Below, one piece after another: positions 2,144 through 35,848 of a DNA stretch of 48,264 bases. Every line of letters begins with the position of its first letter. The first letter of the stretch is position 1. Below the pieces are notes generated by a model. It was not told the DNA's origin, ran no database searches, and was given only the letters and a program-made list of their open reading frames with translations. Where the stretch lies: positions 1 to 48,264 of the forward strand of contig NZ_JADMJK010000239.1 of NCBI RefSeq assembly GCF_018780625.1. The letters run 5' to 3'. Source of the stretch: Polaromonas sp. Its GTDB lineage: Bacteria > Pseudomonadota > Gammaproteobacteria > Burkholderiales > Burkholderiaceae_C. The position numbers were made by a program, and so were the translations under genes.

Positions 2144-2197
2144 TTTTTTTGATAGCTACTTGTCCTCGTAGCTATTGGGCTACAGGACAATTTGGCT
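2144..2197 (+). repeat. Dispersed repeat, copy A (intergenic)
   Basis: The layout is TTTTTTTGATAGC, then GGGCTACAGG ending exactly 30 bases from the A of ATAGC at its GGGCT, then ATTTGGC at positions 39-45. Internal arms ATAGCTAC/GTAGCTAT and TGTCCT/AGGACA can form hairpins. The same frame of landmarks recurs at copies B, C and D. From memory it resembles a common Comamonadaceae intergenic repeat; this has not been checked. Confidence 0.6.
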
Positions 2198-2226
2198 AAT
2201 AGTTTTCGGCCTAAAGCAGTTCTCCA

Positions 2227-2242
2227 GCCTCGCTAGCGAGGC
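2227..2242. repeat. Perfect 16-bp palindrome over the ferredoxin stop codon
   Basis: GCCTCGCTAGCGAGGC reads identically on both strands and contains the TAG stop of the ferredoxin gene. It could form a 6-bp hairpin with a CTAG loop, but no T tract follows on either strand, so it is at best a weak terminator. Confidence 0.5.
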
Positions 2243-2499
2243 AGCACCGGCACAACAGCCTGCAGGCGATGGTACTTCTCCCAGAGCGTTTCCCGGGTTT
2301 CAACATGCTGCGGGTTTACCGGAATGCAGGCAACCGGGCAGACTTGCACGCACTGGGGTTCGTCAAAGTGGCCGACGCACTCGGTGCACTTGTTCGGGTC
2401 GATTTCGTAGATTTCCTTGCCGAGGTAAATCGCCTCGTTGGGGCATTCGGGTTCGCACACATCGCAGTTGATGCATTCGTCTGTGATCAGTAAAGCCAT
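2233..2499 (-). CDS. YfhL-type 2[4Fe-4S] ferredoxin
   Basis: This is a small electron-transfer protein of 88 residues. Cluster I ligands are C9-x2-C12-x2-C15-x3-C19. The second cluster has C38-x2-C41, an eight-residue insertion, then C50-x3-C54 and C58, the pattern of the Alvin/YfhL-type dicluster ferredoxins. It is the last gene of a minus-strand run and starts 18 bases after coaD ends. The redox partner is not evident from the sequence. The coaD-ferredoxin pairing is, to my knowledge, common in this family. Confidence 0.92.
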
Positions 2500-2517
2500 G
2501 GCGTGTTCCTTGTCCTC

Positions 2518-3033
2518 TCAAGCCTGCAATCGGGGCCGGTGCGCCGCTTCCAGTGCGCCAGCCACGGCCGGGCTGACCATCTGGCCGACGTCGCCGCCCA
2601 GCTTGCTGATCTCGCGCACCAGCGTGCTGCTGATGCACTGCAGGGGCGCGTCGGGCAGCAGAAACACCGTCTCCACCTGCGGGCGCAGCTTGCGGTTCAT
2701 GGCGGCCATCTGGGCTTCGTAGTCAAAGTCGGTCAGGTTGCGGATACCGCGCACCACCGCGCAGGCCGACTGCGCCGCGCAAAAATCCATGATCAGGCCG
2801 TCAAACGACAACACCGTCACGCCCGCTATGTTTTCAGTCGCCGCACGCACCTGCTCCACGCGCTCGTCCAGTGAAAACAGGGTTTTCTTGTGGTGGGCCA
2901 CCGCTACCGCGATCACGAGTTGGTCAAACAGCCCGGCGGCGCGGCGCACCACGTCGTCGTGGCCCCGGGTGAACGGATCAAACGTGCCCGAATAAACAGC
3001 AATGCGGGGAAATGGCGGCGGCGTGATGGGCAT
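2518..3033 (-). CDS. coaD: Pantetheine-phosphate adenylyltransferase
   Basis: CoaD carries out the penultimate step of coenzyme A synthesis, adenylating 4'-phosphopantetheine to dephospho-CoA. The 171-residue protein shows the nucleotidyltransferase motif YSGTFDPFTRGHDD (His25 in the T/HxGH box), the VVRGIRN segment and a C-terminal ISSTLVR, equivalent to the usual ISSSxVR. I start at the ATG MPITPP, which places the GTFDP motif at the expected distance. The reading frame stays open upstream to 3090, but that part has no family resemblance. Confidence 0.95.
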   Translation of the reverse strand: MPITPPPFPRIAVYSGTFDPFTRGHDDVVRRAAGLFDQLVIAVAVAHHKKTLFSLDERVEQVRAATENIAGVTVLSFDGLIMDFCAAQSACAVVRGIRNLTDFDYEAQMAAMNRKLRPQVETVFLLPDAPLQCISSTLVREISKLGGDVGQMVSPAVAGALEAAHRPRLQA

Positions 3034-33906: not shown

Positions 33907-33911
33907 CGCGC

Positions 33912-35120
33912 TCACACCCGTTCCAGGATCAAGGCAATGCCCTGCCCCACGCCGATGCACATGGTCGCCAGCGCGTAGCGCCCGCCCGTGGTGTGCAGGC
34001 GGTTGACGGCGGTGGTGGCCAGGCGCGCACCCGATGCCCCCAGCGGATGGCCCAGCGCAATCGCGCCGCCCCAGGCGTTGACGCGCGCGTCGTCGTCCTG
34101 CACGCCAAGCATGCGCAGCACGGCCAGGCCTTGCGCGGCAAAGGCTTCGTTGAGTTCAATCACGTCCATCTGGGCCATGGTCAAGCCGGTCAGGGCCAGC
34201 ACCTTTTGTGTCGCTGGCGCAGGGCCGATGCCCATGATGCGCGGCGCCACGCCGGCCGTGGCCATGCCGACGATGCGGGCACGCGGCGTCAGGCCGTTTT
34301 TGGCGGCGGTGGCTTCGTCGGCCAGCAGCAGCGCGCAGGCGCCGTCGTTCACGCCGCTGGCATTGCCGGCGGTGATGGTGCCGTCCTGGCGCACGATGGG
34401 TTTAAGCCTGGCCAGCACTTCCATGGAGGTTTCGCGCGGATGCTCGTCCTTGCCGACGACGATCGCCTCGCCCTTCTTCTGGGCAATCGTGACCGGCGTG
34501 ATCTCAGCGTCAAAGTAGCCGGCTTTCTGCGCGGCTACGGCCTTGAGTTGGCTGGAAAAAGCCATCTTGTCCTGGTCTTCGCGGCTGATATTGAAGTCGG
34601 TGGCGACGTTCTCGGCGGTTTCAGGCATGGAGTCCACGCCGTACTGGGCCTTCATCAGCTTGTTGATGAAGCGCCAGCCGATGGTGGTGTCGTACACAGC
34701 ATTGGAACGGCTGAAGGCGCTTTCAGCCTTGGGCATCACGAACGGTGCGCGGCTCATGCTCTCCACGCCGCCGGCAATCATCAAGTGGGCTTCGCCCGAC
34801 TTGATGGCGCGGGCCGCCGTGCCCAGCGCGTCCAGGCCCGAGCCGCACAGGCGGTTGAGGGTCGCGCCCGGCACCTCGATTGGCAGCCCGGCCAGCAGCG
34901 CGCTCATGCGCGCCACGTTGCGGTTGTCTTCGCCGGCCTGGTTGGCGCAGCCGTAGATCACGTCGGTGATGGCGGCCCAGTCCACGTCAGGGTTGCGCGC
35001 CATCAGCGCCTGGATGGGAATGGCGCCCAGGTCATCGGCGCGCACGCTGCTCAGGGCGCCGCCATAACGGCCAAAGGGGGTGCGGATAGCGTCGCAGATG
35101 AAGGCTTGGTTGATCGTCAT
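33912..35120 (-). CDS. pcaF: 3-oxoadipyl-CoA thiolase
   Basis: PcaF cleaves 3-oxoadipyl-CoA to succinyl-CoA and acetyl-CoA, the last step of the beta-ketoadipate pathway. The 402-residue thiolase opens ICDAIRTPFGRYGGALSSVR and contains GCANQAGEDNRNVARM, typical of PcaF rather than general acetyl-CoA acetyltransferases. The nucleophile is Cys92 in NRLCGSG, and near the C-terminus GHPLGASGAR and CIGVGQG carry the other catalytic His and Cys. It follows pcaJ after 49 bases. Confidence 0.93.
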   Translation of the reverse strand: MTINQAFICDAIRTPFGRYGGALSSVRADDLGAIPIQALMARNPDVDWAAITDVIYGCANQAGEDNRNVARMSALLAGLPIEVPGATLNRLCGSGLDALGTAARAIKSGEAHLMIAGGVESMSRAPFVMPKAESAFSRSNAVYDTTIGWRFINKLMKAQYGVDSMPETAENVATDFNISREDQDKMAFSSQLKAVAAQKAGYFDAEITPVTIAQKKGEAIVVGKDEHPRETSMEVLARLKPIVRQDGTITAGNASGVNDGACALLLADEATAAKNGLTPRARIVGMATAGVAPRIMGIGPAPATQKVLALTGLTMAQMDVIELNEAFAAQGLAVLRMLGVQDDDARVNAWGGAIALGHPLGASGARLATTAVNRLHTTGGRYALATMCIGVGQGIALILERV

Positions 35121-35169
35121 GGAGTGGTCTCTTTATAAAAGTTCAATACGGCACAAAAAGTGTTTCAGC

Positions 35170-35814
35170 TCAGGCGGCAATCGGCAGGCCGACCAGCTTT
35201 TCAAGTTCGGCATGGGCCAGCCCGTCGACCTTGTCGATGAGCTTCAAGCCCTTCGGCGTGCATTCGAGCGTGGCCAGCTCGGAGTAAATGCGCTTGACGC
35301 AGGCAATGCCGGTGAGCGGATAAGTGCACTGCGCCACCACCTTGCTCTCGCCCTTTTTGGTCAGCAAATCCATCATGACCCAAGTCTGCTTGGCGCCAAT
35401 GGCCAGGTCCATCGCGCCGCCCACTGCCGGAATCGCGCCGGGCTCGCCGGTGCTCCAGTTGGCCAGGTCGCCGGTGGCGGACACCTGAAACGCACCGAGT
35501 ACGCAGATGTCAAGGTGGCCGCCGCGCATCATGGCAAAGCTGTCGGCATGGTGAAAATAAGCGCCGCCCGGCAGCAGCGTGATCGGCTGCTTGCCCGCGT
35601 TGATGAGGTCGTAGTCTTCCTGCCCGGCAGCGGGTGCCGGCCCCATGCCGAGAATGCCGTTTTCGCTTTGAAGGATGACCTCGCGCCCGGCCGGAATATG
35701 GTTGGCAACCAGCGTCGGCATGCCAATGCCCAAGTTGACGTAGGCGCCGTCAAAGATGTCCTGCGCCACACGCTTGGCCAACTCTTCCTTGCTTCGTTTT
35801 TGATAGCTGCTCAT
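35170..35814 (-). CDS. pcaJ: 3-oxoadipate CoA-transferase, subunit B
   Basis: This is the catalytic beta subunit that moves CoA from succinyl-CoA to 3-oxoadipate. The 214 residues contain GIGMPTLVANHIP and the active-site Glu51 in SENGILGMGP. Acetoacetate CoA-transferase (ScoB) is the alternative, but linkage to pcaF and an IclR regulator favours PcaJ. The start codon, the AAGGA ribosome binding site and codons 1-6 (MSSYQK) all lie inside a copy of the dispersed repeat (copy D). Confidence 0.9.
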   Translation of the reverse strand: MSSYQKRSKEELAKRVAQDIFDGAYVNLGIGMPTLVANHIPAGREVILQSENGILGMGPAPAAGQEDYDLINAGKQPITLLPGGAYFHHADSFAMMRGGHLDICVLGAFQVSATGDLANWSTGEPGAIPAVGGAMDLAIGAKQTWVMMDLLTKKGESKVVAQCTYPLTGIACVKRIYSELATLECTPKGLKLIDKVDGLAHAELEKLVGLPIAA

Positions 35815-35848
35815 GCTTTTTCCTTATGCGCCAGAAGCTGATTTGGCA
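35797..35848 (+). repeat. Dispersed repeat, copy D (pcaI/pcaJ junction)
   Basis: On the plus strand TTTTTGATAGCTGCT begins the copy (ATAGC at 35803-35807) and ATTTGGC (35841-35847) falls at exactly positions 39-45, as in copy A; TGCGCCAGAAG stands in place of TGGGCTACAGG. The copy covers the last codons of pcaI, its stop, the pcaJ ribosome binding site, and the pcaJ start with its first codons. Confidence 0.6.

Follow-up and report, generated by a model that had tools for sequence, protein, structure and literature searches.

The closest described relative of the element considered here is a spaced pair of words, ATAGCT(N)22CAAAAG, which was found by statistics in 125 copies in the genome of Polaromonas naphthalenivorans CJ2 and was reported in 2017 with no function given in the available part of that account (PMC5217627). 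This pair is the core of a 66-bp motif that we identified in four copies in a 48,264-nucleotide stretch of DNA from Polaromonas sp. (contig NZ_JADMJK010000239.1; hereafter the window), with ATAGCT at motif positions 15-20 and CAAAAG at 43-48 in the spelling, or dialect, of a second genome, G036. The CJ2 copies were divided into 101 intergenic, 18 in genes and 6 overlapping, with 34 convergent (PMC5217627), so that a preliminary description of the window, which had known of no account of such repeats entering genes, had missed an existing count of 18 in 125. The exact pair occurs 12 times in a 400-kb sample of G036, which scales to 132 per 4.41 Mb versus 125 for CJ2, and the genic share is 14% in both, as far as the available CJ2 figures go. 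In the window's own genome, the exact pair is found in one of 70 loci, a difference of dialect. The available part of the CJ2 account is without the 66-bp extent, the relatives, the shared sites, the dialects, the length-neutral genic copies and the loss described below (PMC5217627). The same table also contains GCTTAT(N)5AAGCG in Acidovorax ebreus (PMC5217627), which is perhaps a relative of the 66-bp motif. In the literature that we searched there was no account of the motif's shared sites, dialects or function, and a search on uptake sequences together with Comamonadaceae found nothing.

Among better-known repeats, the DNA uptake sequences (DUS) of Neisseriaceae and the uptake signal sequences (USS) of Pasteurellaceae are similar to the motif in their many copies, species dialects, core-genome bias and occurrence both within and between genes, and many uptake sequences in Neisseria are thought to have been made by recombination rather than by point mutation (PMC2397512, PMC3630211; here and below, the comparisons draw on the available parts of the cited sources). 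Unlike the 66-bp motif, they are 10-12 bp long and about five times denser, their uptake bias has been shown experimentally and a receptor, ComP, is known (PMC2397512, PMC3630211); the meningococcal spacing is approximately 1.5 kb (PMC2397512). The palindromic elements of Rickettsia are likewise repeats that are read in frame inside unrelated metabolic genes, but they are about 150 bp long and inserted (PMC10969869), whereas the 66-bp motif often involves no change of length, is read in several frames and appears to be kept up at the DNA level. The beta-proteobacterial repeat element (BRE) is likewise a short repeat of Betaproteobacteria, Polaromonas included, that is mostly intergenic and in some cases genic; its members are about 90 bp long and GC-rich, with a mean of 69% in Bordetella, lie in tandem at certain loci and reach a maximum of 29 copies, in strain JS666 (PMC3110155). 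In contrast, the 66-bp motif is AT-rich (35-44% GC), occurs singly in most cases and has no copy of at least 12 bits in a 17-kb JS666 locus. Repetitive extragenic palindromic (REP) elements, which are associated with RAYT transposases, are intergenic, lie near gene ends and are partly palindromic, as is the 66-bp motif. The latter differs in having no clear link to Y1 transposase genes and no recent near-identical copies.

A 66-bp motif with fixed internal spacing

Aligned copies give the 66-bp motif TTGCTAt..atTTaATAGCTgCTtGCGCccgt......tGgGCTa.aGgC..aTTT.......AAA, which can be written as the formula TTGCTAT-N2-ATTTAATAGCTGCTTGCGC-spacer-TG(G/C)GC(T/A)A-N-AGGC-N2-ATTT-N7-AAA. The dispersed Comamonadaceae repeat with fixed spacing that the preliminary description proposed is thus real, although its length is approximately 66 bp rather than 55 bp. 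In a systematic 400-kb sample from the 4.41-Mb contig of G036 (hereafter the G036 sample), a profile scan found 56 matches scoring 14 bits or higher, versus none in the reversed sequence. This over-representation amounts to about one copy per 7 kb, or some 600 copies on the contig if the sample is typical. None of the 55 matches of at least 18 bits contained an indel (55/55). The window's own genome holds 138 matches at E<=1 under a model built from 13 seeds, with 150 of 3649 candidates scored.

Conservation along the motif is uneven. When copies were selected by one half of the motif, the unselected halves held 22.6 and 24.7 bits (about 47 bits in total) and the flanks were near 0 bits, with no shared flank sequence. 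In the left half, with copies chosen by the right half (24.7 bits), AGC reached about 1.9 bits and positions 8, 9, 14 and 22 held 0.2-0.4. This unevenness was not made by the search, because it persists when copies are chosen by the other half alone. The 55 copies of one genome have a mean pairwise identity of 0.55 and a highest of 0.82, with no near-identical copies among them. The left part of the motif contains a 17-bp dyad, GCTAT-N7-ATAGC; the consensus ends, TTGCTA and a weak AAA, are not complementary and form no terminal inverted repeats.

Some copies occur in close pairs. In G036, the copies at C9:4305757/4305892 and at 585792/585919 form inverted pairs separated by about 60-70 bp, an arrangement reminiscent of the paired uptake sequences with terminator function in Neisseria and Haemophilus. 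Two oppositely oriented copies overlap at L041:306-403.

Four copies in the window

The copies in the window were scored with a profile built from 55 copies elsewhere in the same genome, excluding those of the window. This profile found exactly four matches (35.3, 14.1, 12.8 and 28.6 bits for copies 1-4, respectively; Table 1), thereby recovering, ungapped against the 66-bp model, all four of the copies previously proposed. The next-best place in the window scored 2.5 bits, the highest score in 100 dinucleotide-preserving shuffles of the window was 10.0 bits and the reversed window reached 4.1 bits. An earlier sequence-only search with the 13-seed model (12 of the seeds came from relatives, the remaining one from another part of the window's genome) had detected copies 1 and 4 at E of about 1e-10, had scored copy 3 at 6.0 bits, which is chance level, and had not listed copy 2; its seeds excluded L011 and L012, which were coding look-alikes from a first pattern search, L008, which has odd spacing, and the window copies L001 and L002, so that no seed came from the window.

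The finer features reported in the preliminary description were also recovered. GGCT(A/T)CAG is present in copies 1-3, ATTTGGC lies at positions 39-45 from ATAGC in copies 1 and 4, and 66-base slices over the copies have 35-44% GC versus 63% for the window. Three of the four copies involve coding sequence, copies 2 and 3 lying inside genes and copy 4 straddling two gene ends, and copy 1 is intergenic.

Distribution among genomes and along the chromosome

A match at E<=1e-4 was found in 6 of 200 genomes of the order, under stricter filters and with 25 candidates scored per genome; five of these belong to the window's own family (its own genome included) and one, elsewhere, has a single match. 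Within the genus, for which the best 150 candidates were scored per genome, 19 of 31 genomes have at least 77 matches and seven have none, and low counts were obtained for G041 (34), G001 (32), G003 (5), G009 (3) and G005 (1). A tree built from three concatenated proteins places the motif-rich genomes in one clade of 22, within which G003, G001 and G041 are nested. G003 has a shorter branch (0.20) than G002 (0.40) and G037 (0.32), both of which have at least 150 matches. Copy number collapses in single lineages.

In G036, the one genome for which chromosomal position was followed, 149 of the 150 top candidates scored lie on the 4.41-Mb contig of a 5.4-Mb genome. These 149 copies show no departure from an even spread (Kolmogorov-Smirnov p 0.17), and the coefficient of variation of their gaps, 0.98, matches simulation. 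There is no strand or replication bias on this contig, with 84 copies on the plus and 65 on the minus strand and the arms defined by skew being alike (p 0.40).

Shared sites across species

The sites of the window copies recur in relatives. Among the named loci around the M16 peptidase gene that hosts copy 2 (the best 80 of 287), 17 have a copy of at least 20 bits in the same orientation as copy 1 and 2.0-3.3 kb from the M16 start, the site being recognized by distance and orientation. Across these 17 loci and the window, mean identity is 0.53 within the element and 0.29 in both flanks when compared without gaps; the value within the element is close to the mean of 0.55 for unrelated copies within a single genome. 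Copy 2 itself, which is translated as MIIATKKIAIRVITTLASGLFCHIPAWA-AIPIQHW, supplies most of what was judged by eye to be the signal peptide of the peptidase, and a motif of at least 12 bits is present at this signal-peptide site in 38 of the 80 named loci, in many genera. Carriers include Polaromonas, Rhodoferax, Curvibacter, Ramlibacter, Ottowia, Hylemonella and Rubrivivax records, and no copy was found in the 17 kb examined from Polaromonas JS666 (L229, at 12 bits or more) and CF318.

The gene that contains copy 3 is present in 28 of the 31 genus genomes (own included), and several orthologues have better copies at the same place, at 39.7, 37.6 and 36.1 bits; most relatives lacking the motif have a protein of the same length at that place. 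Copy 3 is a worn version of a copy that is strong in some relatives. The profile used for this gene, and for PurK and MoeA below, includes window copies 1 and 4. At the junction of copy 4, a copy of at least 14 bits is present in 4 of 25 loci examined (30 fetched; own included), and in a fifth locus, L328, a 30.2-bit copy directly follows the upstream CoA-transferase gene. The second CoA-transferase gene carries exactly AGCTATCAAAAACG at its start in two motif-free loci, L313 and L316, and many other loci encode the same residues there; copy 4 has thus grown around older codons. The preliminary description had allowed for the genic blocks being ordinary conserved codons of motif-free relatives, and this describes part of copy 4 (the YQKR codons) but not copy 3, which is better preserved in several relatives.

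More generally, 8 of 10 copies in the window's own genome have a counterpart in orthologous G036 stretches that were not chosen for the motif, in a comparison made without two copies matched through the element alone, the second MoeA hit and one displaced hit. A weak match in L077 has no G036 counterpart. No clean empty site was found at the loci compared.

Copies within genes

The 56 copies in the G036 sample comprise 8 within genes, 7 overlapping a gene end and 41 intergenic, as placed by our own, unvalidated gene-finding script. Sixteen (11 intergenic and 5 partial) lie at convergent gene pairs (47 gaps), 25 at tandem pairs (202 gaps) and 5 at divergent pairs (52 gaps), two copies being possible per gap. 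In the window's own genome, 22 of 83 copies were called in frame within coding sequences (CDS), with five of the six frames used; the sixth frame contains the TAG of ATAGCT. We took the genic share from the G036 sample since the weakest of these 22 copies may be look-alikes. The coding use to which the preliminary description drew attention therefore occurs, but in a minority of copies.

Ten genic copies were compared with solved or genus homologues. In six, the protein has the same length at the motif to within 2 residues (PurK, the copy 3 methyltransferase, EarP, PutA, an OppD-like ATPase and an acyl-CoA dehydrogenase), and in four it is longer, by about 7 (ThiL), 11 (PurL), 23 (MoeA) and 28 residues (RlmJ, a weak copy). 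Entry into genes by insertion, as the preliminary description's wording implied, would thus account for the four proteins that are 7-28 residues longer and not for the six of unchanged length; both insertion and length-neutral origin appear to occur, the latter being common among the ten compared. For MoeA within the genus, carriers have a long linker and non-carriers a short one, and L150 and L161 have a long linker with no recognizable motif. A second stretch of moeA also resembles the motif, more weakly, and coincides with a conserved protein motif; it lies at L054:1506-1571 (+) and in the G036 orthologue in L151. It scores 23.7 bits in G036 versus 18.3 in the window's own genome and could be a real copy or a codon look-alike.

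Probable maintenance at the DNA level and species dialects

In PurK, 16 of 28 aligned sequences (own included) score at least 20 bits and 9 score below 8 bits, middling scores (3 of 28 in PurK, 5 of 28 in the copy 3 gene) being left out. Codon 17 is GCT and codon 21 is ATA in 16 of 16 carriers and in 0 of 9 non-carriers, both positions being part of the score by which carriers were selected. In G036, ATA provides 9% of isoleucine and GCT 11% of alanine codons. The GC content at third codon positions of PurK is 0.32 in the motif versus 0.82 outside. Synonymous identity is raised inside the motif in the copy 3 gene (0.702 versus 0.532 outside), and 14 of 289 windows of that gene are equally high.

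Comparison of 76 copies from the window's own genome with 105 from G036 identified five positions that differ at p<0.001, namely 27, 29, 41 (G to C), 44 (T to A) and 46, giving TGgGCTa in the former and TGCGCaAaA in the latter. Of 11 orthologous sites in these two genomes, coding sites included, 10 have a G036 copy that resembles the G036 dialect more closely than its counterpart does (Wilcoxon p 0.002); three of the 11 come from G036 loci that had been selected because they bear the motif. Such concerted differences of spelling at orthologous places imply that something must read or copy the motif. Concerted change is not expected of inert fossils, and an RNA fold would show covariation, so a reading protein is the simplest cause.

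A proposed maintained recognition motif

The motif combines fixed spacing and uneven conservation with orthologous sites across species, dialects, collapse in single lineages and no base-pair coupling. We consider it probable that it is a maintained DNA motif read by a protein. Our leading, still tentative, explanation is that it is a double-stranded recognition motif of 66 bp, kept in hundreds of chromosomal copies and read by a species-specific protein, most likely in an uptake-like role. By analogy with known uptake sequences, a function in the recognition of self-DNA is possible, although we would not give it an even chance. DNA with a good copy would be taken up or recombined more often, as with the uptake sequences of Neisseriaceae and Pasteurellaceae; good copies would then spread among the cells of a species, replacing local sequence, and genic copies would settle where the resulting reading frames are tolerable, as in a signal peptide, loops and surface helices. 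Such spread would explain genic copies that arise with no insertion, the dialects, the near absence of copies from the smaller G036 contigs and erasure after loss of the system. In its fullest form, which we put forward as speculation, free-living Comamonadaceae would own a self-DNA recognition system with a 66-bp motif that resembles no known uptake sequence and a putative receptor differing among species; copies of the motif would be written in place, codon by codon or by recombination, even to the extent of having supplied a peptidase with its signal peptide in many genera.

Since something must read or copy a motif with such concerted dialects, a reader protein, together with an uptake or chromosome-organizing system in an environmental family, becomes directly searchable. 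Moreover, segments of proteins, including a signal peptide, linkers and helices, seem to be shaped by a demand at the DNA level, for which we know of few precedents besides uptake sequences and the Rickettsia elements.

Several observations weigh against an uptake-like motif. It is far longer and sparser than known uptake sequences, with a spacing of about 7 kb versus 1.5 kb; uptake sequences measure about 30 bp when their flanks are counted. Most copies are intergenic and near gene ends, as in REP-like repeats, and the MoeA and RlmJ copies look like real insertions. Synonymous identity inside the motif is not clearly raised in PurK (0.656 versus 0.644 outside) or MoeA (0.678 versus 0.641). 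The dialect test has the narrow base given above, and L022, a strong copy in the window's own genome (49 bits), has no counterpart in the orthologous G036 stretch. When gaps are allowed at the copy 1 site, the downstream flank has an identity of 0.49, so the contrast between element and flank there depends on ungapped comparison. Finally, ComEC is present in 26 of the 31 genus genomes, motif-rich and motif-poor alike, and its presence in G003 and G041 means that loss of ComEC cannot explain the collapse. With no ComEC pattern, loss of competence genes was rejected as its cause.

Alternative explanations

A binding site for a nucleoid- or chromosome-organizing protein, comparable to matS or parS, would draw on the same evidence of constraint, dialect, collapse and chromosome-only distribution as the uptake-like motif, with drift of specificity producing the dialects and loss of the protein leading to decay. 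The 17-bp dyad fits a dimeric DNA-binding protein, and the even spread on the large G036 contig is also in keeping with such a role. We nevertheless regard an organizing site as doubtful: the copies have no regional or strand pattern, a rigid site of 66 bp is long for a protein of this kind, and genic copies that arose with no insertion would be explained only by selection for ever more sites. The length-neutral genic copies, the dialects and the chromosome-only distribution are the reasons for which we favor an uptake-like role over chromosome organization.

An old non-autonomous mobile repeat, similar to REP elements or to miniature inverted-repeat transposable elements, could have spread in an ancestor of the family and then been inherited, with some copies kept as terminators, linkers or signal peptides. 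The preference for intergenic places and convergent gene ends and the true in-frame extensions in MoeA and RlmJ speak for this history, and a Y1 transposase gene is present in 30 of the 31 genus genomes. Among the Y1 loci that we looked at (20 of 39 listed matches), 6 of 16 from motif-rich genomes have a copy no more than 400 bases from the Y1 domain, compared to 19 of 99 like-sized G036 genes (Fisher p 0.11). However, the 85 kb around the Y1 genes of motif-rich genomes contain 15 copies, near background, and Y1 genes are also present in motif-free genomes. Mobilization by RAYT proteins therefore has no clear support, although a weak local excess near Y1 remains, and the proximity result leaves the standing of the readings relative to one another unchanged. 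The lack of near-identical copies (at most 0.82 and on average 0.55 identity among 55), the zero indels in those 55 copies, the genic copies of equal length and the adherence of orthologous sites to the local dialect, which is unexpected for inert fossils, make a mobile origin unlikely overall. The copies near a Y1 domain are in L337, L339, L343, L344, L347 and L351, with an inverted pair in L344.

Action as RNA, whether as terminator, attenuator or stabilizer of mRNA, through two hairpins would suit the consensus of both dialects, which folds into stem-loops, and the many copies close behind stop codons. The inverted arms noted in the preliminary description are present in the consensus, but a conserved structure, for which a check had been proposed there, finds no support: paired cells across 55 copies amount to 77.6% versus 77.7% after shuffling, which indicates no covariation, RNAalifold predicts no pairs from the 13 seeds, and no dyad pair is among the 15 strongest couplings in either genome (76 and 105 copies), single pairs reaching z of 2.1-2.5. 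Copies also occur in either orientation relative to genes and deep within genes, the consensus has, by eye, no U-tract directly after a stem, and the four window sites have no Rfam match at the gathering score, so that a role as RNA is improbable.

It is very improbable that ordinary codons matching by chance account for copies 2 and 3: their scores of just 14.1 and 12.8 bits, their lack of clarity under the first model and the overlap of copy 4 with codons also found in motif-free relatives would allow it, but none of the 100 shuffled windows exceeded 10.0 bits, and this reading was refuted by strong orthologous copies at the same places, of up to 40.5 bits for copy 2 and 39.7 for copy 3.

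Features of the window and further observations

The copies and the genes around them are given in Table 1. None of the 20 repeat families shown for the window concerns the 66-bp family.

Table 1. Motif copies and associated genes in the window.
Feature	Positions	Strand	Context or host	Score or domain
Copy 1	2138-2203	+	intergenic, just 3' of the peptidyl-tRNA hydrolase stop codon	35.3 bits, E 3.4e-10
Copy 2	5094-5159	-	within M16 peptidase CDS, same strand, most of the signal peptide	14.1 bits
Copy 3	27599-27664	+	within methyltransferase gene, antisense, decayed	12.8 bits
Copy 4	35789-35854	+	from the stop of one CoA-transferase subunit gene to the start of the next, antisense to both	28.6 bits
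Peptidyl-tRNA hydrolase			gene before copy 1	Pfam PF01195
M16 family peptidase	3811-5166	-	host of copy 2; predicted start codon ATG 5164-5166	Pfam PF05193 and PF00675
Methyltransferase	26982-27905	-	host of copy 3	weak Pfam Methyltransf_11, 21.9 bits (cut-off 21.2)
CoA-transferase subunit, upstream gene	35824-36543	-	3' end in copy 4	Pfam PF01144
CoA-transferase subunit, downstream gene	35170-35814	-	start in copy 4	Pfam PF01144

Outside the window, the match to the ComEC domain is split in two by additional coding sequence at G014:C12:394405-395484 and G015:C108:1011-1991, and most other genomes have a single ComEC match over positions 1-267. Within the window, positions 3811-7745 hold a tandem pair of M16-family peptidase genes. 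The first of these encodes 848 amino acids and has no Pfam match listed N-terminal of its M16 matches, which lie at residues 411-763. A tRNA gene at 48135-48206, near the window end, is the sole Rfam match in the window at the gathering score.

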